NCBI RefSeq assembly: GCF_022919115.1
Contig: NZ_CP095072.1
Location: 186,001 to 250,000 of the forward strand
Reading direction: 5' to 3'
DNA length: 64,000 nt
Source of the DNA: Gracilibacillus caseinilyticus
GTDB taxonomy: Bacteria > Bacillota > Bacilli > Bacillales > Amphibacillaceae
The position numbers and the translations under genes are program-made. This document shows, piece after piece, positions 128 to 61,590 of the stretch. How positions within the stretch are numbered: the first letter of the stretch is position 1; the number at the start of each line of letters is the position of its first letter. Under the pieces are notes generated by a model, which was given only the letters and a program-made list of their open reading frames with translations, was not told the DNA's origin and made no database searches.

Positions 128-283
128 GCTTTCGTTCATAACTGCTTTCCAAAGTGACTCTTTTGTCCGAATGTAGCTGGCTTTCGTTCATAACGACCTT
201 CAAAAGTTGCTCTTTTATTCGAATGCAGCCGGCTTTCGTTCATAACGACTTTTAAAATAGAGCCTTTTTGTTCGAATAGCATT
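128..283. repeat. 52-bp tandem repeat, family A, three units
   Basis: Three head-to-tail units begin at 128, 180 and 232. Each starts GCTTTCGTTCATAAC and carries a conserved TTCGAAT or TCCGAAT near its end. The period is exactly 52 bp, which is not a multiple of three, so the short reading frame across the block is not credible as a gene. The third unit is degenerate and runs into the terminator of the phosphatase gene. The rest of 1-127 holds nothing recognisable. Confidence 0.85.
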
Positions 284-305
284 AAAACCATATCAGAAAA
301 CATAA

Positions 306-349
306 AAAAGCTCACAAACATTTCTATATCCATGTTTATGAGCTTTTTA
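306..349 (-). terminator. intrinsic terminator of the phn operon
   Basis: An inverted repeat of about 15 bp (AAAAGCTCACAAACAT pairing with ATGTTTATGAGCTTTT) lies directly after the phosphatase stop codon. Read on the minus strand it ends in a T run, as expected for a Rho-independent terminator. Confidence 0.8.
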
Positions 350-352
350 AAA

Positions 353-1099
353 TTATACAGTCACAACTGAATCCTGATCAACCAACCGATTCTTCACCAG
401 TGTAATGACTTCCTGCTCCACACCTTTAGCTAATAAGTATTGTTCAACCGATTCATATGTAGCTGTAAGATACTCATACGCCTTCTCCATGTACTCCCCT
501 TTCGAGTACATATAATCTACCGGAATGCCTTCTGGAAGATCTTCTTCCGTGTGCATGGTCTTTAAATTGGTATAACTCACTTCGTAATTTGATATGATAT
601 CCTTTTTTTCCACACCAGCTAAGCTCAGAAGCATCATGGCCAGGATACCAGTTCGGTCTTTACCACCTGCACAATGAAAAATGATAGTTCCTTCCTCAGC
701 ATGGGCAATAAGATGGAATATGTCCTGGAGCACTTTATTCTCTTCCAGTAATTCAATATAAAAGTCTCCCATGAATCGCTTTTCACTAGAATAAATAATA
801 TTAGAAACCTGCTCTGTGATAAACGGAAAATTGTAATAGTGGCAAAACGCTTCCTTCGCTAACACATTCGGTTTTTCCTGAATTTCATCTTCACCGCGTA
901 AATCGATGACCGTCTTCACACCGTATTCTTTTAAAAACATGATATCCTCTTCTGTTAACTTACTCATATCACTGGATCGTAATAATTCGTGCCATTTTGT
1001 CTGCTGACCATACGCTGTATTATAGCCACCTAACTCGCGGCAATTGTCGATGCTCTCTAACGGCAAACGAACCCAATTTAATGCTGGATTTTTTATCAT
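353..1099 (-). CDS. tyrosine-protein phosphatase of the Y_phosphatase3 type
   Basis: This 248-residue protein has the CX5R phosphatase loop HCAGGKDRTG, with catalytic Cys143 and Arg149, and an N-terminal NCRELGGY segment typical of single-domain bacterial and fungal-type tyrosine or phosphoinositide phosphatases. The start follows an AGGAGGGAGG ribosome site. It is the last gene of the phnDCEE operon, 18 bp after the second permease gene. In the cytoplasm it could dephosphorylate an imported phospho-compound or a signalling lipid or protein; that link rests only on position. The fold and motif are secure, the substrate is not. Confidence 0.85.
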   Translation of the reverse strand: MIKNPALNWVRLPLESIDNCRELGGYNTAYGQQTKWHELLRSSDMSKLTEEDIMFLKEYGVKTVIDLRGEDEIQEKPNVLAKEAFCHYYNFPFITEQVSNIIYSSEKRFMGDFYIELLEENKVLQDIFHLIAHAEEGTIIFHCAGGKDRTGILAMMLLSLAGVEKKDIISNYEVSYTNLKTMHTEEDLPEGIPVDYMYSKGEYMEKAYEYLTATYESVEQYLLAKGVEQEVITLVKNRLVDQDSVVTV

Positions 1100-1117
1100 A
1101 CAATTCCTCCCTCCTGG

Positions 1118-1915
1118 TTATCTACTTTCTCCATACTTCACCATTGTCTTAAGCTTTGTCATCGAAAATTCCAACACTAACATCAGTAGACAGATAACAA
1201 TTAAAATCGTCGTCGTTTGGGCGTAATCATAGGCACCAATCGCTTTTGTTAAAAGCAGTCCAATACCACCTACACCGATAATCCCTAAACCGATGGACTC
1301 CGCCACATCCCCTTCAAAACGGACGGTAATCCAGCCGAAGAAAGACGTAATACAAAGTGGAATTAAGCCGTGAAAAACAATATTAAACCAGGACGCACCT
1401 GTTGATCGCATTGCTTCGACAATGTCGGTACCGACTTCCTCAATACTTCCGGTAAACAGTTTGATAAGATAACCGATCGAAGATAATAACATCGCAATGA
1501 ATCCTGACGTATAGCCAAAGCCGAGGCTGGCAATGACCATCAGACCCCATACAAGACCGGGAACCGAACGGATCACGGCGAAAAAGGCTTTAATAAAATT
1601 GGCCAGATAGTTGCTTGGCGTAATGTTTCTTGCTGCCAAAAAGCTCAACAGCATCGCAATAATCACCGAAACAATTAACGTTAGGAAAGCTAGTGATAAA
1701 CTGGTGACACATGCTAATAAGGCATCTGGGATAACACTCAAATCAATCACCATCATTCTGCCAATGACAGCTGGTACGTTTTCCAGTCTTTCAAAAAATT
1801 TCTGAACATCTAAGTTAACGAGCTTGATCGAGCCAATAAACACGGTGACCATAATAAATGCAATAAGTATTGATTTGACGGCACTCCCTTTTGAAGTTAC
1901 TCGTATACGCTCCAT
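1118..1915 (-). CDS. phnE: phosphonate-type ABC transporter permease (PhnE family, second copy)
   Basis: This is an integral membrane protein of about 266 residues with six predicted hydrophobic segments. It has the inner-membrane binding-protein-dependent permease loop in its C-terminal half (EAMRSTGASWFNIVFHG, followed by the GIIGVGGIGLLL stretch typical of PhnE). An upstream ATG at 1948 is in frame and overlaps the preceding gene, but the ATG at 1915 has the better ribosome site (AAGGGATGG). It pairs with the permease encoded just upstream to form the membrane channel for a phosphonate, phosphite or related phospho-solute. The family call is firm; the exact substrate is not readable. Confidence 0.88.
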   Translation of the reverse strand: MERIRVTSKGSAVKSILIAFIMVTVFIGSIKLVNLDVQKFFERLENVPAVIGRMMVIDLSVIPDALLACVTSLSLAFLTLIVSVIIAMLLSFLAARNITPSNYLANFIKAFFAVIRSVPGLVWGLMVIASLGFGYTSGFIAMLLSSIGYLIKLFTGSIEEVGTDIVEAMRSTGASWFNIVFHGLIPLCITSFFGWITVRFEGDVAESIGLGIIGVGGIGLLLTKAIGAYDYAQTTTILIVICLLMLVLEFSMTKLKTMVKYGESR

Positions 1916-1940
1916 TATTTTTCCATCCCTTACTATTGAG

Positions 1941-2737
1941 TTATGCAATTCGACTGCGAATCGAATTTGTCACGTATTCTGTTATTAAAATAATGCAAAC
2001 AATGACCGTAATGATTGTCAACGCTTCACCATAATTAAATAAATTAATATTGGTATCAATTAAGACACCGATACCGCCGGCACCTACTAGACCAATGACA
2101 GTCGATGCACGAACGTTTATTTCAAATGAAAATAAAGTCCAGTTTATCCAAGCAGGCACAAACTGCGGGATCACGCCATGAAATAATATTTGAAAATACG
2201 ACGCACCATTCGCCTGCAGTGCTTCCAGCTTATCTCCGGAAATTTCATCAATGGATTCTGCATAGCTTTTGCCAAGAAAACCAACTGTTACGAGAATTAA
2301 GGCGATGACGCCGACAATGCCACCAATTCCAAAGATATAAACCAGTAATGCCCCCAGATAATAAAAGGAATATTTCTTAAGATCGAAATGAAGCCACGGA
2401 CAAATACGCGTAAGGCTTTAAATTTATTCGTATGTTCCGAGATTAAGATGCCTAACACAAAGGCAACGAGAGATGAAATATAGGTTGCAATCACGGCATA
2501 TCCCAACGTGTCAATCACTAACGGAATATATTCTCTGAAATTCTCCAAATTTGCAGGAAAGAATTTTTGAAAGAAGAACATCAGAAAGTTGGGCAACCCC
2601 ATTACCATGTCAATAAAACTCAATTCTAAATAGTAGATACTAAAAATACTGGCTGCCAACAAAGCCGTTACCGTTATGATAGCTTTGCTGGAACCACCTT
2701 GCTTTATTGGGATTTGATTATTTGATCGCATTATCAT
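1941..2737 (-). pseudogene. phnE: phosphonate-type ABC permease (PhnE family, first copy), frameshifted
   Basis: Two reading frames together give a normal PhnE. The upstream part (2297-2737) carries the N-terminal membrane segments up to RNIPFIIWG. After a frame change the sequence continues ALLVYIFGIGGIVG and ends with the loop and the C-terminal segments. The break coincides with a run of five C at 2351-2355 (five G on the coding strand); six would restore the frame. The start overlaps the phnC stop as ATGA and the end overlaps the next permease, so the operon design is intact. A consensus error or a very recent mutation is more likely than old decay, because both halves are otherwise well conserved. 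Confidence 0.85.
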
Positions 2738-3564
2738 TGTTCTGCTCCACTCACTTGTCTGTCTTCATTCACAAACGCAGAGGCTGCTCCACCTTTATTT
2801 TGCAGCGTCATTTGCGATTCTTTCCCTTCATAAATATCTCGTACAATCGAATCTGTTAAATGGGACGGTGAGCCATCAAATACGACTTCCCCTTTTTTAA
2901 TTCCGATTATTCGAGACGCGTATCGCTTGGCATAATCCACCTGGTGAAGGTTGACGACACACGTTAATTGCTTTTCAATCGAAATGCTGTGGAGTTGCTG
3001 CATGACAATATTGGCAGATACCGGATCAAGAGAAGCAATCGGTTCATCCGCTAGTAAAATTTTCGGTCGTTGCAGCAATGCCCTGCAAATACCGACGCGC
3101 TGCATCTGACCACCGGATAAGGCATCCGCTCGTTTATACATTTGATCTTCGAGGCCAACTTTTTTCAACAGCTCGACTGCTTCCTGTTTATCTTGCTGGC
3201 TGTACAAACCTAGTAAACTCTTATATAAAGGAGTATTACTTAATTGTCCATGCAGCACATTTTTAATCACATTAGTCCGGCTGACTAGATTATAATGTTG
3301 AAAAATCATACCGATCTTGGAACGTTGGTCTCGTAATTTACGTCCGCTTAATTTCTCCATATGCTGACTGTCAAATACGATATCACCTGCCGTTGGATCG
3401 ACAAGACGGTTGATACAACGAATAAAAGTGGATTTCCCCGCTCCTGATGGGCCGATCACCACGATAAACTCACCAGGATAAAAATCAAGTGAAATACCGT
3501 TCAGCGCGCGCGTTTCTTTTCCATATACTTTAACTAAATCTCGTATAGATAATATTGCTTCCAT
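2734..3564 (-). CDS. phnC: phosphonate-type ABC transporter ATP-binding protein
   Basis: This 276-residue cytoplasmic ATPase has Walker A GPSGAGKST at residues 38-46, the ABC signature LSGGQMQRV near residue 150, Walker B ILLADEP, and a following LDP and H-loop region. The overall pattern (VYGKETRALNGISLDF at the start, FQHYNLVSR at the Q-loop) matches PhnC. Its ATG overlaps the phnD stop as TAATG, so the two are probably translationally coupled. It energises the two PhnE permeases. Confidence 0.93.
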   Translation of the reverse strand: MEAILSIRDLVKVYGKETRALNGISLDFYPGEFIVVIGPSGAGKSTFIRCINRLVDPTAGDIVFDSQHMEKLSGRKLRDQRSKIGMIFQHYNLVSRTNVIKNVLHGQLSNTPLYKSLLGLYSQQDKQEAVELLKKVGLEDQMYKRADALSGGQMQRVGICRALLQRPKILLADEPIASLDPVSANIVMQQLHSISIEKQLTCVVNLHQVDYAKRYASRIIGIKKGEVVFDGSPSHLTDSIVRDIYEGKESQMTLQNKGGAASAFVNEDRQVSGAEQ

Positions 3565-4502
3565 TATTCCTGCACATCCTCTAACGCATTAATGGTATCT
3601 AACATTTCAATGGCCGGATCATAATAATCAGTTTTCGTTGCTTCGAATCGAGTTCCCGCATCTCCATGAAGTGCCTCAAAGTATTCTTCATTTTCAAAAG
3701 ATACAAAGGCTTCCTGTAATGCTTTTTTGAAATCTTCCGGTAAATCACCACGAACAATATAAGAAGCGTCCGGAATATTAGCTGTACGGCCAATCACTTT
3801 GATATCATCTGGATTAAAACTATCTGATTCACCCATCATCGCCATAACCTGGTGTGCTACGGCTGCTGCCTCGTAATCTCCCATTGCCACACCCATCAAA
3901 CTATTTGGATGTCCCTCAGAAAACACGACATTTTCAAAGAAGTAGCCGGATTGTTCGATTTTGTCCGGATCTAAATCCAATTCTTGTACCAGCGTAGCCT
4001 TCGGATAAAGATATCCAGAAGAAGAAGCAGCATTAACAAAAGCAAAGTTAGTTCCCTTTAAATCTTCTAAACTATTAATATCATCATTGTCTGCTTGTGT
4101 AACAAAATCAGTGTAATACTCGGACCCGCCTGGCACGACAGGTGTAACTAATAATTCTGCGCCTGCCTTTTGTTTGGCCTGATAGTAGCTCATTGGGCTT
4201 GCCAGCATGACATCAAGATTTCCAGCAGCCATTGCTTCTATTCCGACTGCATAGCTTCCTCCGTCAAATTCCTTGACTTCAATCCCTAGTTCTTCGGTAA
4301 GATGTTCTTTTAAAGAAGTATGCATGGTTGCAGCTTCTGTTGGATTATTTTCATCAGGCATCTGAACCAAAGTAATCGTCTCTGGCCATTCACTATTTCC
4401 AGACTCTGCTTCTGCAGTTGTTGCGCCCTCTGCGTTTCCACATGCTGCTAAAACGAATACGAATAAAAGCGGCAAAATTATTTTTCCTAACAAACTTTTC
4501 AT
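3564..4502 (-). CDS. phnD: phosphonate/phosphite-type ABC substrate-binding lipoprotein
   Basis: The protein has about 312 residues. It has a lipoprotein signal (hydrophobic segment ending in the lipobox LAAC, Cys about 20 from the chosen start) followed by a PhnD-like periplasmic-binding fold (LVQMPDENNPTEAA near the start, then the MLASPMSYYQAKQKAGAELLV region that lines the pocket in this family). Several ATGs lie together; the one at 4502 has the best spacing to AAGGAG. It is the first gene of the operon and delivers the ligand to the PhnE/PhnC complex at the outer face of the membrane. No C-P lyase, phosphonatase or phosphite dehydrogenase is present nearby, so the ligand stays open. Confidence 0.88.
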   Translation of the reverse strand: MKSLLGKIILPLLFVFVLAACGNAEGATTAEAESGNSEWPETITLVQMPDENNPTEAATMHTSLKEHLTEELGIEVKEFDGGSYAVGIEAMAAGNLDVMLASPMSYYQAKQKAGAELLVTPVVPGGSEYYTDFVTQADNDDINSLEDLKGTNFAFVNAASSSGYLYPKATLVQELDLDPDKIEQSGYFFENVVFSEGHPNSLMGVAMGDYEAAAVAHQVMAMMGESDSFNPDDIKVIGRTANIPDASYIVRGDLPEDFKKALQEAFVSFENEEYFEALHGDAGTRFEATKTDYYDPAIEMLDTINALEDVQE

Positions 4503-4555
4503 AACCATCATCTCCTTTGATTAATTACTTCCTGATCAGACCTTGAAACGGATAA

Positions 4556-4580
4556 TTTGTATATAACTTGTATACAACTC
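4556..4580 (-). promoter_or_regulatory. candidate operator/promoter region of the phn operon
   Basis: The region holds two adjacent similar sites, TTGTATATAA and the perfect palindrome TTGTATACAA (4568-4577), inside an AT-rich stretch about 60 bp before the phnD start. GTATAC-centred palindromes of this kind are typical GntR-family targets. No GntR gene is adjacent, so the regulator is unknown. A -10/-35 pair could not be fixed with confidence. Confidence 0.4.
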
Positions 4581-4684
4581 AAATACAATTTACTTACACT
4601 GATAAATATACAGATCAATTGTTAAGGAAGTGTTAATCTATTGAAAATGTTCTATTAAGTTTGGAAGTGTTTGTTTTACTTATC

Positions 4685-4790
4685 TACTTTTGACTTCTTT
4701 CTTTTAATCGATACAAATCTCGATGCGCTGCTCCCTACTTTTGGCTCCTTTTCTTTTAAACGATATAAATCTCAATGAATTGTTTTTCTT
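4685..4790. repeat. 52-bp tandem repeat, family B, two units
   Basis: Two units have the shared core CGATACAAATCTC followed by a CTACTTTTGGCTCCTTT-like segment. The equivalent positions 4712 and 4764 are 52 bp apart. The same family recurs at about 42.1 kb and 61.4 kb. The remainder of the 4580-4893 gap shows no gene. Confidence 0.8.
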
Positions 4791-4893
4791 ATTTAATACC
4801 TATGCCTCGTAGCAATTTTTAGGCGCTTTGCTACACATAAAAAAGCATTCCCAATCGAAAATGCTCTTTTACAGTCTATTATTACTGATACTT

Positions 4894-5727
4894 TTACACA
4901 TACATCTGCCGATACTTCGTCGGCGTCATGCCCTCATTCTCCAGAAACAGCTTATTAAAATAGCTTGGATTAAGATAGCCAGATCTTTCGGCGATTTCTT
5001 TCACTGTGAGATTTTTTTCTTCCAGCAGTAATTGTTTACTCCATTGCAAACGACATAACGTAACAAAAGTCACCGGCGTCATCTTGGTGACACGTTTGAA
5101 CAGCCGGCAAAAATAGTACGTGCTTACCCCCGTTTCTGCCGCCCAGTATTCCAGATCGAATGGTTCTGGTGCTCTCTCTTGCATTTTTGGTAAAAGGGAT
5201 TGGATCCGCAAATCTATTTCCTGATTTGATTTCGATTCTCTCGGAACGGCATGGTTAGTAAAACAGGATAAGAAAGAATACGTAAGGGTAGATAATTGTG
5301 ATAATCTCAAAAAGCTGTTCTCCTCGGCTTCCTGTAATAATAACTCATGTTCCTTCACCAACCTCGCCAAATCCGGTAATCGCCACAAGGTAAATCGGCC
5401 AAAGCCAATCTCAGACAAAAAGTGAGTTAACGTACTTCCATAAAAGTGAACCCATCTCACACTCCACGGATCATCCGAACTGCTAAAATAAGTTTGTTCC
5501 TGTTGCGGGAAATAAAGAAAGGAATCCCCTTTTTGCAACGTATATTGCTTGCCATTCATTTCTACAAAACCAGTCCCAGCTAAGACGACATGTATACTAA
5601 AATTATCTAACGACCCTGCCTCACGATAGACCTGATGATCCCCGGCCATCTGATAGGAACCGACTGATTCCGGAAGGATCATATAGGCATGTTTTTTTAA
5701 CGTTGGTAATAGCACTTGACGATTCAT
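4894..5727 (-). CDS. AraC-family transcriptional regulator
   Basis: This 277-residue regulator has an N-terminal cupin-like sensor (VLAGTGFVEMNGKQYTLQKGD, around residues 50-70) and a C-terminal double helix-turn-helix of the AraC/XylS type (EIAERSGYLNPSYFNKLF, then GMTPTKYRQ). The start at 5727 is chosen over an upstream in-frame ATG because GGGAGG lies eight bases before it. It is divergent from the Gfo/Idh oxidoreductase and aldo/keto reductase pair, which it probably controls in response to a sugar or polyol. The inducer is unknown. Confidence 0.88.
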   Translation of the reverse strand: MNRQVLLPTLKKHAYMILPESVGSYQMAGDHQVYREAGSLDNFSIHVVLAGTGFVEMNGKQYTLQKGDSFLYFPQQEQTYFSSSDDPWSVRWVHFYGSTLTHFLSEIGFGRFTLWRLPDLARLVKEHELLLQEAEENSFLRLSQLSTLTYSFLSCFTNHAVPRESKSNQEIDLRIQSLLPKMQERAPEPFDLEYWAAETGVSTYYFCRLFKRVTKMTPVTFVTLCRLQWSKQLLLEEKNLTVKEIAERSGYLNPSYFNKLFLENEGMTPTKYRQMYV

Positions 5728-5783
5728 TGCTTCCTCCCTCTTCCAAGGACAATATTGTGTTATCTTATTGCAAAAAGCTTCTA

Positions 5784-5812
5784 TTTTCATTTTAATCACA
5801 ATCGCTTATAAT
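5784..5812 (+). promoter_or_regulatory. promoter of the Gfo/Idh - aldo/keto reductase operon
   Basis: A perfect TATAAT at 5807-5812 lies 30 bp before the start codon. A weak -35 candidate (TTTTCA at 5784-5789) is 17 bp upstream, consistent with a promoter that needs the divergent AraC activator. Confidence 0.5.
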
Positions 5813-5841
5813 AACAACAAAGTTATAGAGGGGGTTCATAC

Positions 5842-6843
5842 ATGGCGATTAAATGGGGAGTTATGAGTACAGCGAATATCGCAAAAAAAGCCGTTATTCC
5901 TGGTATAAAACAATCAGAAACAGGTGAAGTCTATGCCATTGCCAGTCGAAACCTGGAAAATGCAAAAGAAGTCGCAAATGAATTAGAGGTACCAGTTGCC
6001 TATGGAAGCTATGAAGAATTATTGAACGATGCGAGAATTGATGCCGTGTACATTCCATTACCTAACCACCTGCATAAAGAATGGGCGATAAAAGCAATGG
6101 AAGCCGGTAAGCATGTGCTCTGTGAGAAGCCCATTGCTTTAGATGCTAAGGAAGCACAGGAGATGGAAGCAGCAAGTCATAGAACTGAAGTCATTTTGGC
6201 AGAAGCCTTTATGTACCGGTATCATCCACGATACCAAATGATAGAGGAAATCATCCAATCCGGTGAAATAGGAGACATCCGCAGTATTCACAGTGCATTC
6301 ACCTTCAATAACGCTGCCGCGAAAGAAAATGTCCGCTATCGTAAAGATTGGGGTGGCGGCTCGTTATATGATGTCGGCGTCTATCCGATCAGTGCTGCCA
6401 GAATGATTTTAAAAGGAGAACCAGAAGCCGCAACGGTCCATGCTTTCTTTTCAAAGGAACATGATCACGTCGATATGATGGCTTCCGGGATTTTGGAATT
6501 TGACAATGGGATTGCCCTCACCTTTGATTGTGGCATGTGGGCTGCCTCCCGTAATCGTATGGAGATTATCGGAACAGAAGGCAGAATCGAGCTGCCGTCC
6601 GCTTTTGTTTCCCATCAAGATGAACAGGATCATTTCTACCTGCACACCAATAATGGAACGAAAGAGGTCGAAGTCCCACATGTCAATCAGTATGCACTAC
6701 AGGCAGATGCTGTTGGCAAAAGTATTCAAAACGGCAAGGCATTACCTTATCCTGCTGATGATGCGGTGTTAAACATGAAGGTACTCGACGCTTGTCTAAC
6801 TTCTGCTGAGGAAAGAAGACGCGTCGAAATCCAAGGAGGTTAA
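5842..6843 (+). CDS. Gfo/Idh/MocA family NAD(P)-dependent oxidoreductase
   Basis: The protein has 333 residues. The N-terminal Rossmann fold begins GVMSTANIAKKAVIPG, the conserved CEKP motif sits at residues 94-97 with its catalytic Lys, and the C-terminal substrate domain contains GGGSLYDVGVYPI. Members oxidise or reduce sugars, inositols or related polyols and trans-dihydrodiols. An AGAGGGGG ribosome site precedes the ATG. The next gene starts 6 bp after the stop, so the two form an operon with the divergent AraC gene as likely regulator. The substrate cannot be assigned from sequence alone. Confidence 0.9.
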   Translation: MAIKWGVMSTANIAKKAVIPGIKQSETGEVYAIASRNLENAKEVANELEVPVAYGSYEELLNDARIDAVYIPLPNHLHKEWAIKAMEAGKHVLCEKPIALDAKEAQEMEAASHRTEVILAEAFMYRYHPRYQMIEEIIQSGEIGDIRSIHSAFTFNNAAAKENVRYRKDWGGGSLYDVGVYPISAARMILKGEPEAATVHAFFSKEHDHVDMMASGILEFDNGIALTFDCGMWAASRNRMEIIGTEGRIELPSAFVSHQDEQDHFYLHTNNGTKEVEVPHVNQYALQADAVGKSIQNGKALPYPADDAVLNMKVLDACLTSAEERRRVEIQGG

Positions 6844-6849
6844 GTAAAT

Positions 6850-7857: not shown

Positions 7858-7874
7858 TTGTTGATCACTTTTTC

Positions 7875-9573: not shown

Positions 9574-9762
9574 TAAGTGAATCTGGCATTCTACGGAAAG
9601 TTTTTGAAGATGCTTATTCACACTGGCGCGACTACGGGGTCGCAAGGACGTAAGAGCAGGTAGGGCTTACGTTGCTTAAGTTAGAAAATTACCAGTGGAA
9701 CATGTACCGCGGTAAAAGTGAAATTTGATAACTGAAATTTCCCACCCGAGATTATCGGGATA
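9574..9762 (+). ncRNA. structured leader RNA of unknown class upstream of cvfB
   Basis: The leader folds into nested helices that can be read directly. GUGAAU...GCAU pairs with AUGC...AUUCAC (about 9576-9620). CACUGG (9621-9626) closes on CCAGUG (9692-9697) around two hairpins, GCGAC/GUCGC (9628-9643) and ACGUAAG/CUUACGU (9648-9672). A self-complementary UACCGCGGUA sits at 9705-9714, AAAUUU pairs at 9721-9740, and CCCGA/UCGGG follows at 9745-9759. Local GC content is above its flanks. With the promoter upstream and a hairpin just before the gene, it has the layout of a riboswitch or other attenuator. It does not match any riboswitch consensus I can recall. It could instead be a free-standing small RNA. 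Confidence 0.5.
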
Positions 9763-9869: not shown

Positions 9870-10718
9870 ATGATGAATCAAATCGGTACAATCCAGACGC
9901 TGGAGGTACTTCGAAAAATAGATACTGGATATGTTTTAGCAGGCGACATCCTCCTGCATCATAACGAAACAGAACAAGAACTGGAAGCGGAGCAAGCTGT
10001 TGATGTTTTTGTTTACCAGGATAAAAAAGGACAAACCGTTGCAACAACACAAGTACCAGCGATCCAAATCGATACATACGGCTGGGCTGAAGTGGTCGAA
10101 GTCTTACCGCACTTAGGTGTTTTTGTTAACATTGGTACAACAAAAGAAATCCTTGTATCAAAAGATGAACTGCCGTTGTTCATAGACGTATGGCCGATCG
10201 TTGGTGATGAGCTGTATGTTTCATTAGGCAAAGATCGGAAAGGACGCCTTCTTGCCCTCCCGGCTACAGAAGGAATTTTTGAAAGAATGTTCGAATCAGC
10301 ACCCGATGATCTATTTAACGAAACTATCAGCGGTCGCATCTATCGTACAGACAGAGAAGGTGCTGTATGTATAACAGAAGCAGGCTACCGCGGGTTTATC
10401 CATCACACCGAACGAAAAGAAGAACCGCGTTTAGGCGAACAAGTAGAAGGCCGCGTGATTGAAGTGAAGCATGACGGCACATTAAATGTATCACTTAGAC
10501 CGTTGAAACAACACAGTATGTGTGAAGATGCGGACGAGATCCTGGCACAATTAGAAGAAAGTAATGGAGTCCTTCCATTTTCTGATAAAAGTAATCCTGA
10601 CGAGATACGCGAAACCTTCAACATCAGTAAAGCAGCGTTTAAACGCGCATTAGGTAAGTTAATGAAGGAAAGAAAAATTGAACAACGCGATGGGAAGACT
10701 TATTTGATCTCTGAGTGA
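9870..10718 (+). CDS. cvfB: S1-domain RNA-binding protein CvfB/YitL
   Basis: The protein has about 282 residues from the ATG at 9870, which has AAGAAGG seven bases upstream; an upstream TTG at 9849 is in frame but would overlap that site. Three S1/OB-like domains are visible (LGVFVNIGTTKEILVSKDELPL, then GRIYRTDREGAVCITEAGYRGFIH, then a GTLNVSLRPL strand), followed by a C-terminal winged helix (ETFNISKAAFKRALGKLMKE). This is the architecture of CvfB (S. aureus) and YitL (B. subtilis), cytoplasmic RNA-binding proteins that affect virulence and gene expression in staphylococci. It stands alone behind a structured leader. Confidence 0.9.
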   Translation: MMNQIGTIQTLEVLRKIDTGYVLAGDILLHHNETEQELEAEQAVDVFVYQDKKGQTVATTQVPAIQIDTYGWAEVVEVLPHLGVFVNIGTTKEILVSKDELPLFIDVWPIVGDELYVSLGKDRKGRLLALPATEGIFERMFESAPDDLFNETISGRIYRTDREGAVCITEAGYRGFIHHTERKEEPRLGEQVEGRVIEVKHDGTLNVSLRPLKQHSMCEDADEILAQLEESNGVLPFSDKSNPDEIRETFNISKAAFKRALGKLMKERKIEQRDGKTYLISE

Positions 10719-10759
10719 CAGCGCAGTTGGGCATCACGCTGGGAGTTCGGGATAGAGCG

Positions 10760-10876
10760 GAGCTATTGGACAGGTCCGTTCCTTTTTTCGTGCGTATTGG
10801 GGCGATTGAGCTCTTCTATCGGACAGCTCTGCTTCTTTTCTCGTGCACATTGTCCGATTGAACACTTCTATCGAAG
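10760..10876. repeat. 52-bp-type tandem repeat, family D
   Basis: Two and a half units begin GAGC(TCTT)CTATCGGACAG at 10760, 10808 and 10860. The second-to-third spacing is 52 bp. The first unit is 48 bp because it lacks four bases. The sequence is unrelated to the other three repeat families in the window. Confidence 0.65.
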
Positions 10877-27100: not shown

Positions 27101-27143
27101 AACTAATCAGCAATCAGAATTTATGAAGTCATGATAGATAGGC

Positions 27144-27353
27144 ACACTTCAAGCGTTTGAAGTAAATACGAGCAGACTTCGGTTTGAAGACGAGGGAACT
27201 TCAAGCGCTTGATGCATATACTATGTGCCTCACGCTTGAAGATAACCGAACTTCAGACGTTCGATGCATTTGCTATGTGCCCTTACGCTTGAAGATAACC
27301 GAACTTCAGACGTTCGATGCATTTGCTACGCGCCTTCCCGCTGGAAATGGACG
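27144..27353. repeat. 52/53-bp tandem repeat, family C, about four units
   Basis: Units starting GAACTTCAGACGTTCGATGC or close variants begin at 27196, 27248 and 27301, with a degenerate unit before them. Spacings are 52 and 53 bp. The two central units are nearly identical over about 50 bp. No gene overlaps; short open frames here are by-products. The remaining 27354-27571 shows nothing else. Confidence 0.88.
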
Positions 27354-42009: not shown

Positions 42010-42059
42010 TTACGTACCTCCTTTCGAGAGGGTTCATTATGTAAGTGTATATATAAAAG

Positions 42060-42265
42060 AAAATGTTACATATTTTCCACTTTTGTTTCGTTTTTTTCTA
42101 AACGATACAAATCTCTTGTTTCTGCTTCCCACTTTTGGCTCCATTCTCCCTAAACGATACAAACCTTTTGCTACTGCTTCCCACTTTTGTTTCCTTTCTC
42201 TCTAAACGATACAAATCTTTTGCTACTGCTTCCCGCTTTTGGCTCCTTTCTTTACCAAAAGATAC
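42060..42265. repeat. 52-bp tandem repeat, family B, about four units
   Basis: AACGATACAAATC-type cores begin at 42101, 42153, 42205 and about 42258, a period of 52-53 bp. Between the cores lies GCTACTGCTTCCCACTTTTG or close variants. The same consensus is found at 4.7 kb and 61.4 kb. Confidence 0.9.
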
Positions 42266-54019: not shown

Positions 54020-54041
54020 TATAGTCTCCTTCCCACACCTT

Positions 54042-54386: not shown

Positions 54387-54417
54387 CCCTCTTTTGTATT
54401 CACTTTTTAGTACTCTG

Positions 54418-54459
54418 TAATACCGGTATTCTGTATTGCTTATTACTAGTATATAGTAA
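54418..54459 (-). promoter_or_regulatory. palindromic operator region before padR
   Basis: Two palindromes lie close together: AATACCGGTATT (54419-54430) and TTACTAGTATATAGTAA (54443-54459). A similar AGTACTAAG stretch occurs near 53228 before the drrA-type gene. Confidence 0.55.
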
Positions 54460-55076
54460 TGCATATTAGTGGTGACTGTCAAGCACATTTTATTAATAAA
54501 GCAGGCATAATTCGCCTGCTCCATAAATCAAATGTTAAGTTAGATGGGGTTGATCGATCATCTGTGATGGTTATTAGACAGAGTAATTATATAGAAGTAC
54601 GGTTTGCTTGAAAGAGAATTTCTTACGTTCATTACACTTTTCTCTTTCCTCGCTTTTGATCGAATAGCGTGTGCTTTCGTTACGCTCTCCTCTTATGATG
54701 TGTACATAAGAAATCAGCATTTTAATTTCTTACGTACACTTACAAATCACCCATCTCTTTAAGATTTGTTGATAGGTTGCGGTTCTTTTATGAGATCTCT
54801 TTATTTTGTTGTAAGGATTTATGATATTGGCGAGCACAACATTTCATAGGGTTATACGTGAAGAGGATGGATCGTTGATGTTCATGATGAGGATCATGGA
54901 ATATAATTGTAATCTTTCTTTTCCAATTAATCTACAGGAAGTATATCATAGTAAGGCAGTCAATAAAGCAATAACATTTTTTACGCGAAAATTTTCGATA
55001 CCTACTATGTTTATCATTCGAATATGAAGGGTAACTAATATATATAGCCCAATTCCAATAGAAAGGATGAACAACT
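54460..55076. other. 617-bp gap with no convincing gene
   Basis: Two copies of AATTTCTTACG (54617 and 54724) suggest degenerate repeats. A 68-codon frame at 54821-55027 starts from a weak context and shows no domain, so I did not call it. Confidence 0.5.
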
Positions 55077-55238
55077 ATGTCTAAAAAAACACAGTATCAA
55101 CCTATAGGAGGAAATGGGGAAGAACCATCAGACGCTCAGGAAGTTATTTATGCAAAAGAATTTAAACGAGCAGATATTGCTGGTGGCTATCGAAAACCTA
55201 AAGTAAATGAAGCTAAAAACGAAAACCCTGATTTATAA
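55077..55238 (+). CDS. 53-residue hydrophilic protein
   Basis: The protein begins MSKKTQYQPIGGNGEEPSDA and ends with a Lys/Asn/Glu-rich tail. Codon use is regular and GAAAGGATG lies before the ATG. It is charged, rich in Gly, Asn and Glu, and probably disordered. I do not know the family. Confidence 0.6.
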   Translation: MSKKTQYQPIGGNGEEPSDAQEVIYAKEFKRADIAGGYRKPKVNEAKNENPDL

Positions 55239-55250
55239 AGACAGATTAAG

Positions 55251-55688
55251 TTAGCATAGCTTTGCTTTTACCATAGTGTGAATGGATAGAGATCGTGCAG
55301 GTTTATTGTACGATCTCTTTTGATTATGTAAAGCATAAGTGGAATAGCACAAACTAACGGGCATATTGGAGATTAACTGGTAAATTGCTATGCAAAGACC
55401 TAAAATACTCGCTTTCATTTTGGATGGATGGTTACTTTTACTATGAATCAAGTAAACGAAAACTGATATAAATCCCAAGGGAATCAAAAGCTGAAAGACA
55501 CCTTCTGTTGTACTGCGAGAATAAATGGGGGTAATGTAAGTGCTAATCAAAAAATAAAGAAAAACTTTAAAACGTGATTCTTCAGATTGCTTACTCCACC
55601 TTACTAAAAAGAAAATAACACTAATTGCAATAATTGTAATGTGGAGAGAGGGTAAAATAATAGCAAAGTTACCAAATACAAATTCCAT
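55251..55688 (-). CDS. membrane protein of unknown function
   Basis: The protein has about 145 residues with four hydrophobic segments (about 4-28, 43-57, 64-80 and 90-108), then a hydrophilic basic tail (HNQKRSYNKPARSLS). The start at 55688 is preferred to an upstream GTG. It overlaps nothing and ends 12 bp from the convergent small gene. No family recognised. Confidence 0.5.
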   Translation of the reverse strand: MEFVFGNFAIILPSLHITIIAISVIFFLVRWSKQSEESRFKVFLYFLISTYITPIYSRSTTEGVFQLLIPLGFISVFVYLIHSKSNHPSKMKASILGLCIAIYQLISNMPVSLCYSTYALHNQKRSYNKPARSLSIHTMVKAKLC

Positions 55689-55751
55689 TCCATAGCCCAC
55701 TTCTTTCTGAATATAAAGTCATATTTTTTCAGTACAGTATCTTTCATTCAT

Positions 55752-55991
55752 TTAAGCAATAACTCTTGCCCTTCCTTTTGCTGCTTTTACATTCAAAATA
55801 AACGACCAGGCAAAAGCAGCTACCAAACCAATCAAAAAGATAGCAAAGTTAGAAAACAAATAACTTTTGAAAATAAAGAAATATAGCTGGTTTGCAAATA
55901 AAGCTATTAAGAAAGTGTAAAAGCCTACCATACATCCTTTTTCCCAATTCTTCGATTCGATTTCGGACATCTTTTTAAAGAATATTCCCAA
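55752..55991 (-). CDS. 79-residue two-helix membrane protein
   Basis: A TTG start with GAGGTG five bases upstream gives a cytoplasmic head (KKMSEIESKNWEKG), two membrane helices (about 20-40 and 48-66) and a basic tail (AAKGRARVIA). Unknown family. Confidence 0.55.
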   Translation of the reverse strand: MGIFFKKMSEIESKNWEKGCMVGFYTFLIALFANQLYFFIFKSYLFSNFAIFLIGLVAAFAWSFILNVKAAKGRARVIA

Positions 55992-56230
55992 TGTGTCACC
56001 TCATTTTTTTTCAAAACAGTCTTATATGAATCTGCTTTCTCGTCACCTCACTTACATTTTTTCACAAATCGATAGCAAAGTGAAGATATTTTTTTTGCGC
56101 AATAGGAAGATAGTGCACAGTAGGAAACGGGACTTTTTGTTCGAGTTATTACAAAACAAAATATTGATAACGATTTTCATTCACTGTAAAATAGGTATTA
56201 TCTTTGTCGTTAAAGAAAGAGGTTAATATA

Positions 56231-56825
56231 ATGGAGCGAATCAATTTTTCAGCCGATGCGGTTACTTCAGAAGAGGAACTTCGCAATAGTAGGAACACCA
56301 CACGAACATGTCATTAAAAAGAATACTTCGTTAATAGATGAACATTGTAAGAGATTTATAGAAATGTCACCACTGTTTTTTCTTTCTTCATCAAATGCGG
56401 AGGGAGAATGCGATGTCTCACCAAAAGGAGACTTCCCAAGTGGCGTTCAGGTATTAAACAACAAACAATTAGTGATTCCAGATCGTCCAGGAAATAAACG
56501 CGTAGACTCGATCATCAATATTTTATCCAATCCACATGTTGGGCTATTGTTCCTCATTCCAGGACTTGGAGAAGTACTGCGTATAAATGGACGTGCAACC
56601 ATCATAAAAAATCCCGAGATTCTAAGCAGTATGAGCCTGAAAGGAAAGCCGCCATTATTAGGGATCGGTGTAGATGTAGAAGAGTGCTTTATCCACTGCC
56701 CACGTGCCTTGTATCAATCAAAAGTATGGAACTCCGACTCATGGCCAGACAAAGCAGATCTCCCATCCAGTTTAGAAATATTTCATGCAGCTTTACGACA
56801 TAACGGCGTGGAATTGAAGAAATAA
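56231..56825 (+). pseudogene. pyridoxamine-5'-phosphate-oxidase-like protein (MSMEG_1061 type), frameshifted
   Basis: The first frame gives MERINFSADAVTSEEELR. The rest, in a shifted frame, reads VGTPHEHVIKK, DEHCKRFIEMSPLFFLSSSN, GECDVSPKGDFP, PDRPGNKRVDSI and LLFLIPGLGEVLRINGRA, the full split-barrel family pattern. Loss of two bases in a CGCGCA-like stretch near 56280-56284 explains the break. The joined length of about 198 residues is normal. Members bind FMN or F420-like cofactors; this one's substrate is unknown. Confidence 0.8.
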
Positions 56826-56840
56826 GAGTTTGTTAGATTT

Positions 56841-57034
56841 CTAAAAATGGAACAAATTTGCTATTAGAATAACAAGCATAACAGCAAGATATATGTAGTT
56901 TTTCTTTATATAAAAAAGCAATAATAATTGCTACAGAAATGAATACCCAGAAGATATTATCTGTTAATGGTGGCAACAGGTCAAAAAAATAGATCAATTG
57001 ACTGCTTTAAAAATAGTATGATTACTAATGCCAT
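56841..57034 (-). pseudogene. possible small membrane protein with two homopolymer frameshifts
   Basis: If T runs near 56982 and 56913 (coding strand) are each one base shorter, a 63-residue two-helix protein appears (MALVIILFLK...DNIFWVFISVAIIIAF...ending NLFHF). As read, no long frame exists and the ATG has no good ribosome site. The evidence is coherent hydrophobic segments only. Confidence 0.3.
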
Positions 57035-57136
57035 TATTAAAATGGAGTCAGTTGTTTTATTTTCTTTTTCCTGTTTATATTAATTTCCACCGAATTCCAA
57101 ATTTCTGAACTTTGCTCATTAGGTTAAGTGAATAAG

Positions 57137-57700
57137 TTATATGTGAGAGTCTTTAATCTTAGCTATTATTTTGCTATAGATTACCTTCATATGTGGTTCA
57201 TCAGAATATGTATTTATTTCTTCAAATGAGATCCACTGAACATCACTGTTCTCATCATCCTTCACAATAAGTGGTGCGTCCTCATCTGCTTCTAACAGAT
57301 AAGCCACTGACAGGTGCAGGTGTGGTGCTACATACTCCCCTCTTTTTTCATGTCCTAATACAGGTAAAATGTCTAACGATACCATCTCATCAGTGATCGG
57401 GCGAATATCTTCCACTCCGGTCTCTTCCTTCACCTCTTTTATTGCCACATACAACAAGTCATCGTCTCCATCTGCATGCCCACCAGCCCAAGACCAGGAA
57501 TTAAATATATTGTGATGAACCATTAAAGCTTTGTTTCTATTTTTATTTACAACAAAAGCAGAACTGGTTATATGTGCGATTTCGTTATCTCTGGTGAGAA
57601 GATCATCAAACTTTTTTATACAGTTAACAACGATTTCTTTATCTTTTTCTTCCTGCTCATTATACGTTTTATAATTAATTATGGATTCAATCCAACTCAT
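57137..57700 (-). CDS. NUDIX hydrolase
   Basis: The protein has 187 residues with a NUDIX box GGHADGDDDLLYVAIKEVKEETGV at about 70-93 in near-standard form (GX5EX7REUXEEXGU, with Asp at the first Glu position). Upstream SSAFVVNKNRNKALMVHH and a C-terminal VQWISFEEINTY support the fold. It probably hydrolyses a nucleoside diphosphate derivative. Single gene with a terminator after the convergent neighbour. Confidence 0.9.
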   Translation of the reverse strand: MSWIESIINYKTYNEQEEKDKEIVVNCIKKFDDLLTRDNEIAHITSSAFVVNKNRNKALMVHHNIFNSWSWAGGHADGDDDLLYVAIKEVKEETGVEDIRPITDEMVSLDILPVLGHEKRGEYVAPHLHLSVAYLLEADEDAPLIVKDDENSDVQWISFEEINTYSDEPHMKVIYSKIIAKIKDSHI

Positions 57701-57841
57701 GATTTACCTACTTTCTTTTCAGAGCTCTTTACAACTTTCTCTATCTTATCATACTCTCCCGTTCAATTCCTTTTCACCACTGGTATCATAATCGAAACAT
57801 ATAAGCTCCGTTACATTAAGGACCAAAAATTAAAGTCTAAC

Positions 57842-57878
57842 TGCAACCCTGTTCACTTTCTGAAGAACAGGGTTGTAA
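57842..57878. terminator. intrinsic terminator
   Basis: AACCCTGTTC pairs with GAACAGGGTT around a ten-base loop. It lies between the NUDIX promoter side and the end of the collagen-binding-like fragment. Confidence 0.8.
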
Positions 57879-57906
57879 CTGAAAACTATTTCACCTGATT
57901 AAGCTG

Positions 57907-58410
57907 TCACAACTTCCCAACGGGTGTTTCCATTTCTTCTATTAGAGCAACCCAAGATCCAAAACCCGGTGTCTTTAGCGCCAGTTTTCCTTCTATTTTA
58001 TATTCATTTTTTACTTTTACCCATTCTACTGACACTCGTTTTCCCGGTTTCCAGTGGGCTTCATCGATCTGTAGCCATTGCACACTCCACTCATCATTAT
58101 AAACCCACAGATCGAGTTCCACTGATTCCTCTTCCGGGAAATAGACCGCATACTGTTGACCTACATTCGCAAAGCAATAGCAATCGTTTTCATTTCTGTT
58201 AGTTAAAAAGTGATTAGCAGGCTTACAGGCAAATACGTCCAACCTTTTTACAAGCAGGTCTATTGCTTGAAGCTGTCTCTGTGCTGTCGGAGAAAGGCCC
58301 ATCCCCCAATTTCCTTCATTTCTATGAAAACGGACGGAAGCACTTCCGCCAAAAACATCGCACCAGAAACGCTGCACTGCTTCTGTTGTCGTACCTGCTG
58401 AAGTATCCAT
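57907..58410 (-). pseudogene. C-terminal fragment of a DUF4038/collagen-binding-domain protein
   Basis: This 167-residue frame begins inside a domain: TEAVQRFWCDVFGGSASVRF and LSPTAQRQLQAIDLLVKRLD match the last part of a TIM-barrel-like domain, and YCFANVGQQYAVYFPEEESV starts the putative collagen-binding beta domain that ends such proteins. Full-length relatives have about 450-500 residues. No upstream coding sequence is found, so this is the surviving third of a larger gene. Its first ATG has no ribosome site. Confidence 0.65.
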
Positions 58411-58519
58411 TTACTTTTATACTATCATAAACATCAAAGGAATAATGAGGCTATTCAATCAGTGTGCCAAAAAAATCTAACTATTGCAGGTTTATGCCAA
58501 ATACAAGCATGCAAAAATA

Positions 58520-59044
58520 TCACTCTCGCAATCCAGACTGACTATTGACAACCTGCGCATCAGGTAATCCTAGTATATCTGTGTTTTTAGGTATGTAACC
58601 GAGTAGACGAAGCATTGCCGCAATTTGCCCTTTATGGTGGTACTCATGTGTAATAGAATGAATGAATAATTGATGAGGCGTTTTTCTGATAGCTACATTA
58701 TCTGTTTTCCAAGAAGGTTCCTTTTCAATCGGTTTCTCCCATTCATCGTTAAATGTATGAAACATAGTCTCTACATATTGATCTGCTTGCTGGAAATACC
58801 CCTCAATATCCTCTATCTTCATAACGCGTATAGCTTCTTTTGTTAAGAGCGGTGAAGAAGTTTTTGCTAGCACGAATGAACCTAACCAAGCGTGATAACA
58901 GCCTGCCACATGGACTAAAGAATCTCTGATACTTTGAAAACCAAAACCTAACTCCTTTGTAATTTCAGTTTGACTGAGCTCTTTACACTGGTCTAATAAA
59001 ATCTGTCTTGTTTGTTTTACCCATTCATATTCTGCTTTTTCCAT
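58520..59044 (-). CDS. DinB-family protein
   Basis: This 174-residue four-helix bundle has the metal-binding His pattern: HVAGCYHAWLGSF in helix 2 and THEYHHKGQIAAMLRLLGY in helix 3. The DinB/YfiT fold binds divalent metal; many members act in thiol-dependent detoxification or are DNA-damage induced. Function of this one is open. Single gene. Confidence 0.9.
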   Translation of the reverse strand: MEKAEYEWVKQTRQILLDQCKELSQTEITKELGFGFQSIRDSLVHVAGCYHAWLGSFVLAKTSSPLLTKEAIRVMKIEDIEGYFQQADQYVETMFHTFNDEWEKPIEKEPSWKTDNVAIRKTPHQLFIHSITHEYHHKGQIAAMLRLLGYIPKNTDILGLPDAQVVNSQSGLRE

Positions 59045-59148
59045 AATGATCTCACCTCGTAGTGTTTTAACTGAACATTCCTTCTATTCTATCTAAATGA
59101 GTATTGTACAACCTGTTTAACCACCGATTCTTAGCACAATAAGACTGA

Positions 59149-59319
59149 TCAAGTTTTTTCCTTTTTCCTTTCACTATAGTTCCAGATGTAATATATAATC
59201 CAAAAAATAATTGGAGGTAGAAACGCATAAAATTTCTGACGTCCTAGAAGAAATATAAACAAGATGCTCATAAATATAGTCGCTGGTGGCATAAGAATAA
59301 AATATTTCTTTTTATCCAA
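59149..59319 (-). CDS. 56-residue two-helix membrane protein
   Basis: A TTG start with GCGAGG eight bases upstream gives MDKKKYFILMPPATIFMSIL, a second segment FLPPIIFWIIYYIWNY and a basic end. It lies between the racemase and DinB genes on the same strand. Unknown family. Confidence 0.6.
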   Translation of the reverse strand: MDKKKYFILMPPATIFMSILFIFLLGRQKFYAFLPPIIFWIIYYIWNYSERKKEKT

Positions 59320-59388
59320 TTTTAATACCTCGCTTTTTTTAAAACACCTTTTTGTGTGAATTAATTAAAACACCATTTATTTCTACCT

Positions 59389-60096
59389 TCATTCATTTTT
59401 GGAACTATGTTCTAAAGCAACATTTACTGCTTCGATTGCATGAATAACAGTTGTATCGAACAATGGCACTTTTGCATCTTCAGGTTTCACTAATAAGCCA
59501 ATCTCCGTACATCCTAAAATAATTCCTTCGGCGCCTTTTCTAATTAATTGTTGAATGACATCTTGATAATAATCTCTAGATGAAGACTTAATTTGACCTA
59601 AACATAACTCTTCATAAATGACACGATTCACATTAATACGTTCTTCTTTATCTGGTATGACAACGTCGATTCCATTTAACTTCAATCGTGACCTATAAAA
59701 TTCTTGTTCCATCGTATATTTAGTTCCTAATAATCCTACTGTTTTTATTTTACCTTTTAAAATGTGATTTGCCGTTGCATCGGCTATATGTAAAACAGGT
59801 ATTTTTATCTTTTGTTCAATATATTCCATTACTTTGTGCATCGTATTCGTACAGATGACGATAAAATCCGCACCTGCTCTTTCTAAAGCTAATGCTACTT
59901 CTCCTAAGGTTTCTCCCGCTCCTTCCCAATCACCTTCAGCTTGATAGCTTTCAATCTCATCAAAATCAACACTATATAATAAACATTTTGCTGAATGTAA
60001 ACCTCCTAATGTATCTTTTACTTCTTCATTAATTATACGGTAATATTCTAAGGAAGACTCCCAACTCATTCCTCCTATAAGCCCAATAGTTTTCAC
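59389..60096 (-). CDS. aspartate/glutamate racemase family protein
   Basis: The protein has about 235 residues; the start is probably the GTG at 60096, seven bases after GGGAGAG, giving MKTIGLIGGMSWES. Two catalytic cysteines are in place, ICTNTMHK in the first half and ILGCTEIGLL in the second, as in PLP-independent aspartate racemases (YgeA/RacX type). It supplies D-amino acids or broad-specificity racemisation. Single gene. Confidence 0.9.
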   Translation of the reverse strand: MKTIGLIGGMSWESSLEYYRIINEEVKDTLGGLHSAKCLLYSVDFDEIESYQAEGDWEGAGETLGEVALALERAGADFIVICTNTMHKVMEYIEQKIKIPVLHIADATANHILKGKIKTVGLLGTKYTMEQEFYRSRLKLNGIDVVIPDKEERINVNRVIYEELCLGQIKSSSRDYYQDVIQQLIRKGAEGIILGCTEIGLLVKPEDAKVPLFDTTVIHAIEAVNVALEHSSKNE

Positions 60097-60392
60097 AAAC
60101 ATCTCTCCCTATGATTTTCTATTTTTTACTATTCTAATTCTATTTTTAACTCTTGTAAAACTCTATTATCTGTTTTCAATAAACCCGCTTGCAGTCGTTT
60201 ATCTTCGTCTGTTGCTATATACCAGACAGAAACTAAGTAATTAAAAAGACACCTACCTTGTTCCATACAGGTGCTTATTTGAAAGACTTTATGTTAAAGA
60301 GAAAATTGCTATGAAAGCTGATTATATAAATTGATCCACTGTTTGTACCCAATTGTTGTCCTATTTTTCAGTACTAGTAATCTGTCGTTCGT

Positions 60393-60971
60393 TTACGTCG
60401 AATAAGACATTTTTTCATAGTCTTGCTTCAATAACGAATACATCAATAAATCATCAAATTTTCCGCACGTAAATTCATAATTTCTCAAAAGACCTTCTCG
60501 TATAAATCCCTTTCTTTCTACCAATCGTTGTGATGAAATATTAGGAGGTTCAATTAATGCTTGTACCCGCTGCAGATTCAATTGTTCAAATCCGTATGTA
60601 ATGACTGACTCTAACGCCTCACTGGCCATGCCGTTTCCCCAGTATTCTTTACTTAACTCAAAACCAATTTCAGAACGGCGATGCTCTGAGACGATGTTGA
60701 GAAATCCACAACTGCCAATAATCCTTCCTTGCTCTTTTAAGGTAATGCCCCATCTAATGCCCGTTTTCTTTTCAAATATTGCTTGGTACCAAGCAATTTC
60801 GTCCAATGCATCATCAATGGAGTCAAAAGGTTCTAACCCATAGTGCTTCATGACATCTTGATCAGACAAATACGCCAGTATACTTTCTGCATCATCTTTG
60901 GTTACTTGTCTTAGATTCAATCTATCGGTTTCAATTACAGGAAATCTATTTTCCTCTATCATCCTCATCAT
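60393..60971 (-). CDS. GNAT acetyltransferase of the RimJ/RimL type
   Basis: The protein has 192 residues. ETDRLNLRQVTKDDAESILA opens the domain, IGFELSKEYWGNGMASEALE forms the acetyl-CoA loop, and IEPPNISSQRLVERKGFIREG closes it. Members acetylate protein N-termini or small amines; the target is unknown. A weak hairpin (CACCT/AGGTG at 60248-60271) may end its transcript. Confidence 0.88.
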   Translation of the reverse strand: MMRMIEENRFPVIETDRLNLRQVTKDDAESILAYLSDQDVMKHYGLEPFDSIDDALDEIAWYQAIFEKKTGIRWGITLKEQGRIIGSCGFLNIVSEHRRSEIGFELSKEYWGNGMASEALESVITYGFEQLNLQRVQALIEPPNISSQRLVERKGFIREGLLRNYEFTCGKFDDLLMYSLLKQDYEKMSYST

Positions 60972-61076
60972 CCTTTTTCCATCACCAAATTTTAATTGTG
61001 TCCTATTCCAACGATATGCTATGACACTATATTAGCATAAAATTCCATCGTGTCATGTTCGATTTAAAATAATCGG

Positions 61077-61137
61077 CATTCGCCTCGTATTTTAGCAAGT
61101 GTCATCGTTTTTCTTACACTTAAAATTTCACTACATA
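61077..61137. repeat. direct repeat, left copy
   Basis: CATTCGCCTCGT followed about 30 bp later by GTTTTTCTTACACTT and AATTTCACTAC. A matching copy lies at 61623-61685. The pair brackets a 0.5-kb block of repeats. Confidence 0.6.
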
Positions 61138-61228
61138 AGAAAAACTGGGAAAGCCCACCCGATCCTAACTAACCAACTACCTGTAATATGGATTATGTTA
61201 AGTGGCACATAGCTGTCATTTTAAATGA

Positions 61229-61300
61229 TTCATGTGCTGGGACACCTTAGACCAGCCACTTTTCGTACTGTGGGAGTCTATGTGTCGGCCTGCGCTTTGG
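61229..61300. repeat. hairpin element, internally deleted copy
   Basis: TCATGTGCTGGG, CCAGCCAC, GTGGGAGTCTA and GGCCTGCGCTTTGG match in order the outer parts of the element at 62806-62960, with the middle missing. Confidence 0.65.
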
Positions 61301-61359
61301 TACAGACTCTTCAAGGAGACAAAACCAGACGGGAAACACCATCATTTGTCTTCTTTCTT

Positions 61360-61590
61360 TATAAACACTACAAATCTTGTTGCACCGCTTCCCACTTTTG
61401 GTTTCTTTCTCGCTAAAGGATACAAATCTTTAGCTACCGCTCTCCTCTTTTGGTTCCTTCCTCGCTAAACGATACAAATCTTTGGCTACTGCTTCCCACT
61501 TTTGGTTCCTTGCTGACTAAATGATACAAATCTCGTGGCATCGCGTTCTAATTTTGGCTCCTTTTCTTATCTCGCTAATGAGAGTGATTA
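61360..61590. repeat. 52-bp tandem repeat, family B, about four units
   Basis: TACAAATC cores begin at 61369, 61421, 61473 and 61525, exactly 52 bp apart, separated by CTTCCCACTTTTGGTTCCTT-like segments. Same family as at 4.7 and 42.1 kb. Confidence 0.92.

Follow-up and report, generated by a model that had tools for sequence, protein, structure and literature searches.

Intergenic tandem arrays of about 52 bp with a dyad-plus-linker unit and a near-fixed orientation to replication in Gracilibacillus caseinilyticus

REP and BIME elements, which go with a RAYT transposase, are palindromic intergenic repeats that are sometimes clustered. Streptococcal BOX elements consist of boxA, tandem boxB and boxC modules, are dispersed through intergenic regions and vary in length between strains; several types of end module occur in S. 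suis, and BOX orientation follows the coding bias with 60.8% on the leading strand (PMC3049150). In the neisserial NIME/dRS3 arrays, inverted repeats of the form ATTCCC-N8-GGGAAT alternate with another repeat sequence in intergenic arrays (PMC3898611).

The DNA analysed here (the window, 64 kb) comprises positions 186,001-250,000 of one contig, 4,509,959 bp long, from G. caseinilyticus, whose genome is labelled G000. A sequence-only reading had reported six tandem arrays in it, belonging to four unrelated families, with one period of 52 bp and all located between genes. We employed Tandem Repeats Finder (TRF) and a lag scan of the whole window (lags 15-200, at least 34/52 identical). TRF detected 52/53-bp arrays at 128-277 (A), 10763-10873 (D) and 27196-27335 (C), and family-B arrays of 52/53 bp at 42077-42251 and 61362-61563. 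The lag scan recovered six arrays, that at 4698-4801 included, at lag 52 or 53, which confirmed the reported set; it gave one further match (lag 114 at 10000-10170) and 0 matches in five second-order Markov shuffles of the window. All six arrays do sit between open reading frames of at least 100 aa, the gene to the left of A lying outside the window. The arrays are real, and their limits were revised in two cases: A has an additional, degenerate unit that comes first in plus-strand coordinates (64-115), and C consists of four units at 27135-27344. The array reported at 4685-4790 is weak (34/52 identical) and was recognised mainly through its 78% identity to family B. A and C each occupy a single locus in the genome, and D has four weak relatives elsewhere in it. 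The arrays of the window are as follows.

64..271, minus strand (leading): array A, four 52-bp units; TRF, lag scan and sequence-only register placement
4698..4801, minus strand: weak two-unit family-B array; lag 52, 34/52 identical, 78% match to B
10748..10853, minus strand: array D, two 53-bp units with arms TGTCCGATAGAA / TTCAATCGGCCA; TRF, register and pairing
27135..27344, minus strand: array C, related to family iii, with four 52/53-bp units; TRF, 25/52 identity with iii when both are set on the dyad register
42052..42259, minus strand: array B2, four 52-bp family-B units; TRF, B match and palindrome test
61356..61563, minus strand: array B3, four 52-bp family-B units; TRF, B match and palindrome test, orthologue one unit shorter

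The period of these arrays is not restricted to the window. When 844 kb of the 4.51-Mb genome were sampled (the window plus 39 further 20-kb stretches; lags 20-250), 14/15 non-coding tandem arrays had a period of 51-53 bp, and the genome-wide test therefore does not refute a common length; without the window's own six arrays the peak at 51-53 bp was still present (8/9). L031:1912-2358 (lags 51/52/103) is a further array, which was classed as coding since an open reading frame covers it. In the sister species G015 (800 kb) the period was 51-53 bp in 16/32 non-coding arrays, and there were also two arrays of 102 bp, and three with a period of 51/52 bp that had been classed as coding. The period peak lay at 51 bp in G002 (3/6 arrays, 320 kb) and at 50-51 bp in G007 (4/7 arrays, 200 kb, plus two of 51 bp filed as coding); in G021 (100 kb), the one genome outside this genus in the array scan, 0/1 arrays fell in the peak. 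Lags of 50-51 or their multiples were observed in 3-kb loci of G001, G011, G012, G014 and G015 and were not detected in the 3-kb loci L199 (G002) and L200 (G009). Array-bearing species are thus G. caseinilyticus and seven others of the genus, with arrays of 50-52 bp, where G001 is counted only from lags of 100 and 150 together with a pair of dyads spaced by 50 bp. Many families occur within one genome and across the genus. Family B was found in 2/61 genomes, and the dyad pattern of family iv in 8/61, all of this genus (G. caseinilyticus itself not among these), with 0/44 genomes of other genera and 0 control matches. One pattern scan, which may omit records near G000, matched a single Verrucomicrobia MAG; the matched locus (L061) holds no array, and the match is taken as chance. 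A literature search without the genus name returned no description of these arrays in the library covered, and an existing one is therefore possible.

The common length noticed in the sequence-only reading holds across the genome, and 50, 51 and 53 bp also occur. A whole number of helical turns fails as the shared property, as periods of 50 bp (G012, L195/L202), 51 bp (G002 and G007), 52 bp and 53 bp are all present. At 10.5 bp per turn the slip per unit is ~86 degrees for 50 bp and ~51 degrees for 51 bp. The proposal of exactly five turns of B-DNA, with units facing the same side of the helix, was rejected because 50- and 51-bp periods exist. Selection on length was also put forward in the sequence-only reading; strong selection of this kind is unsupported: there were 0.091 gap events per mismatch inside arrays versus 0.127 in dispersed repeat copies, so that indels within arrays are reduced only modestly. 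In the comparison of neighbouring units, 115 of 148 gapped steps had net length P.

Read on the leading strand, the unit consists of two inverted arms with a short loop between them, together with a purine-rich linker. The arms measure roughly 9-14 bp, the linker about 18-26 bp and the unit 50-53 bp overall. The arms, in the leading-strand reading, are given below.

Family i: TTGTCCGGTAGAA..TTCAAACGGACAA
Array A: TTATGAACGAA..TTCGAACAAAA
Family iii: CGCATGAAG..CTTCAGGCG
Family iv: TGTCCGTAAGA..TCTTATGGACA
Family B: TTTGTATCGTTT..AAAGGAACCAAA, imperfect

Arm letters differ widely between families inside one genome. Whole units repeat, linkers included, which speaks against a CRISPR array with unique spacers. 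Against a null of shuffled unit columns, an interrupted palindrome was detected at z of at least 2 in 23/43 arrays; z was below 2 in 20/43 and negative in three of the 43. Among the window arrays only B2 and B3 reached z 2 under this null; the array at 4698 had 0.4, and the values for A (1.8), C (1.5) and D (-0.8) refer to other short arms chosen by the script and not to the arms named for these arrays. In the separate shuffle test behind the named arms, D was significant (0/60 shuffles) and A and C were not. A looser test with within-family reshuffles (all loci, both strands) found slight excess pairing for A, E31a and E78 and none for B, Bend, i, iv, iii and H; chance matches had contaminated this test, and it is not used as evidence.

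The first comparison of dyad-centred consensuses gave 31/91 pairs with close relatives included and 27/84 without seven same-named pairs. An earlier agreement obtained with MAFFT was partly circular and is weak evidence, the consensuses having been pre-centred on their own dyads. Because the dyad-centred comparisons were partly circular, we ran a register test in which each consensus was placed by sequence alone on the profile of the other families, its own pairing being invisible to the profile. With the family left out, 11/14 array consensuses came to lie no more than 2 bases from the dyad register, where 1.3 were expected; none of these 11 paired equally well at any other register (8-11 of 11 pairs, versus a mean of 3.9-5.3 over registers). 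D, which stands outside the 14-consensus set, was placed on its own dyad with 9/11 pairs, even without family i. Since sequence alone puts both A and D on the register where the arms pair, these arrays are relatives; judged by sequence, they are demonstrably diverged members of a single superfamily, common in the genus, that also includes i, iv, A2 and the L111, L183 and L189 arrays. Relatedness is shown in this way for A, D and nine further consensuses. B, iii and C were not placed by the same test (12, 3 and 7 bases off, with 5 pairs each), and neither was the terminal unit of B. B and C have the same design and orientation as the superfamily, and common descent of B, C and iii with it is unproven. 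The claim that the families are unrelated thus fails for A and D, which share an ancestor and presumably inherited the length from it; for B and C such inheritance is neither established nor excluded. Paired cells numbered 102/121, against a mean of 77.6 and a maximum of 86 in 500 shuffled sets, each centred on its own best dyad. Changes on both sides were observed for 7/11 pairs at the dyad register, in consensuses pre-cut on their own best dyad, where shuffles overstate the case. The covariation score of 0.466 was below the null (mean 0.600; 500/500 simulations higher), as expected of related sequences.

The arrays have a near-fixed orientation to replication. In G. caseinilyticus, dnaA is located at 1,156,575-1,157,894, and the GC skew reverses twice, at 1.145-1.238 Mb and again at 3.395-3.488 Mb. 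The purine-rich strand was the leading strand in 27/28 B loci, and in G015 14/14 grouped B loci, the 14 scored of 60 candidates, agreed with GC skew. The leading strand was purine-rich in 42/43 arrays; the strand rule is broken by array 1,297,577, the exception among the B loci, and by L109, the exception among the 43 arrays. The asymmetric unit of family iv gave 39 forward and 22 reverse matches in G007, where among the matches listed each contig had one orientation: reverse on C7 (2), C8 (1) and C10 (19), forward on C11 (8) and C12 (20), with 11 more forward matches beyond these. C10 agrees with the skew (7/7 stretches negative); on C11 and C12 the skew was mixed in four 4-kb samples, so these gave no decision. 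Genes lie on the leading strand in 430/564 cases in G. caseinilyticus (76%) and 435/536 in G015. The chance of at least 27/28 loci is 0.003 at a bias of 75% and 0.016 at 80%, and that of 14/14 is 0.044 at 80%; the orientation of B is thus not very rare by chance, because gene orientation bias alone gives 0.003-0.016. Array-free intergenic regions were also purine-rich on the leading strand (213/288 in G. caseinilyticus, 168/236 in G015). AGCGG, the Chi-like sequence of B. subtilis, had a higher leading-strand density in arrays, yet was present on that strand in only 5/15 and 7/19 arrays.

Family B has 28 loci in G. caseinilyticus, obtained by grouping 62 matches by hand with weak loci included. 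At many of them the array is accompanied by a 5' module, of which there are three, and by a variant last unit that has a 3' domain; several loci have neither. The parts found at B3 are listed here.

61571..61594, minus strand: 5' module with TATAAT-like letters, common to other B loci
61312..61356, minus strand: variant terminal unit, GAAGACAAA ... TTTTGTCTCCTTG
61177..61308, minus strand: 3' domain, common to other B loci, its distal part also in a dispersed inverted-repeat element
61140..61164, minus strand: hairpin resembling a terminator, with a T run, following the 3' domain, seen in the sequence and absent from the consensus-scan list

A permissive initial search with the 3' domain yielded 265 candidates in G. 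caseinilyticus and 497 in G015; 22 per genome were scored, giving 22 and 23 matches, respectively. The dispersed element, with 28-nt inverted ends, lies at 62747-63261 of the window, and its end is part of the B 3' domain; the sampled stretches contain 48 copies with a length of 250 bp or more. Inverted ends were seen only for this neighbouring element. The locus orthologous to B3 in G015 is shorter by exactly 52 bases, which is one unit, and L005 and L099, with matching flanks, hold 4 versus 8-9 units.

We propose, with a probability of roughly 0.5, that the arrays are non-coding intergenic repeats of one dyad-plus-linker design, with a conserved DNA dyad, whose whole units are gained and lost at replication forks. 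The dyad may fold as a hairpin in the lagging-strand template, which is the purine-rich strand, and at the hairpin the fork would pause or primer and template would realign, leading to the gain or loss of whole units. One orientation of the array would be favoured, giving the strand preference, and the families would drift in sequence with arm changes compensated and unit length inherited. Among the causes offered in the sequence-only reading, replication slippage fits best and may be what operates here. We regard it as unlikely that the arrays are selfish repeats found throughout the genus, recognised by their shape (a ~52-bp dyad plus linker) and not by sequence, and multiplying in one fork orientation only; this was made less likely because B and C failed the sequence-only register test. 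If true, a shape-recognised selfish repeat would produce many sequence families of one length per genome by compensated arm changes.

The modules of family B bear on a different explanation, that of BOX- or MITE-like parasites in which a transposase would move the end modules in trans together with a variable number of passive 52-bp modules, orientation following the genes. The three 5' modules and the 3' domain common to B loci, and the part of that domain shared with the 48-copy element with inverted ends, are consistent with such parasites, but end modules are missing at several B loci, A and C are each confined to one locus, and the dispersed element has no orientation preference (26/48 copies), unlike B (27/28). 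On this evidence we consider parasites of this kind rather unlikely. Improbable, too, are binding sites for a host protein, with the inverted arms as dimer half-sites and the fixed period spacing the protein. Palindromic arms without a strand-specific wobble bias, the fixed period and an orientation linked to replication would suit such sites; however, arm letters vary widely in one genome, arrays of 50 and 51 bp would rotate out of phase, and GAGAAGGG, the SpoIIIE-type polar motif, was absent from the arrays of both G. caseinilyticus and G015.

It is quite improbable that the arrays act as a structured non-coding RNA, with hairpins in a row on a transcript of the leading-strand sense, even though B3 has a terminator-like 3' end, some 5' modules contain TATAAT-like letters and many arrays have stable folds. 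Promoter-like sites were not in excess, and a promoter of the arrays' own was rejected; the arrays may nevertheless be transcribed. The arm cells of the 43 arrays, read in the leading sense, comprised 1381 Watson-Crick, 39 G-T, 66 A-C and 285 other combinations; leading-sense RNA is disfavoured because it should favour G-T, yet A-C exceeds G-T. The mean fold z (first four units per array, 43 arrays) was -1.74 for the leading and -2.15 for the lagging sense, and the leading sense folded relatively better in just 15/43 arrays. Rfam at gathering score detected BsrC alone in the window, outside the arrays, and in seven B or dispersed-element loci at E<=1 only two sub-threshold matches.

Bacterial minisatellites are usually treated as unrelated slippage products. 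Here, arrays that seem unrelated have a common design and one orientation to replication, and several of them demonstrably form one superfamily. They offer a natural system for testing hairpins and fork direction as drivers of tandem-repeat expansion in bacteria, with numerous arrays in each genome and differences of whole units from one sister species to another.

Like REP/BIME elements, the arrays are palindromic and intergenic. A REP/RAYT origin was rejected, as the Y1 transposase PF01797 had 0 matches in G. caseinilyticus, with 5/14 control genomes positive. Whole-unit differences in copy number between relatives are shared with ordinary bacterial VNTR or minisatellite loci, unlike which the arrays have period, design and orientation in common across loci. 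Short inverted repeats in intergenic arrays are also a property of NIME/dRS3, whose RS parts measure 30-160 bp; in contrast, the period here is fixed at 50-53 bp and the arms are family-specific (PMC3898611). Family B is similar to BOX in being intergenic and dispersed, with end modules, at many but not all loci, flanking tandem modules that vary in number, and variable internal copy number, a BOX-type property, was observed at orthologous B loci. The likeness drawn here is one of architecture, and differences from BOX (PMC3049150) are the leading-strand orientation of 27/28 loci versus 60.8%, the one period shared by several sequence families and the common occurrence of copies without end modules. 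By analogy of modules and variable copy number, BOX is the closest known kind to these arrays.

No match to B, the family of intergenic tandem arrays with a unit of about 52 bp, was found in G. caseinilyticus (G000) between positions 2850000 and 4259000 of contig C1, around the presumed terminus, and the stretches sampled within this interval contained no 50–53-bp arrays; both are post hoc observations. The window itself contains:

9598-9685, minus strand: match to the Rfam small RNA BsrC (76.9 bits versus a gathering threshold of 38)
62747-63261: dispersed element whose ends form a 28-nt inverted repeat (86% complementary)

Sampling of G000 and its sister species G015 yielded 48 copies of the dispersed element that are 250 bp or longer. 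B elements share the sequence of one of its ends in their 3′ domain.

Two family-iv arrays, built of dyad-plus-linker units, lie at extracted loci of G015:

L100, 8000-8170: family-iv array
L109, 9300-9470: family-iv array

The L109 array was the exception to the rule that the purine-rich array strand is the leading strand (42 of 43 arrays). Since the flanks of the two arrays match, but in opposite orientation, a larger repeat seems to carry both.
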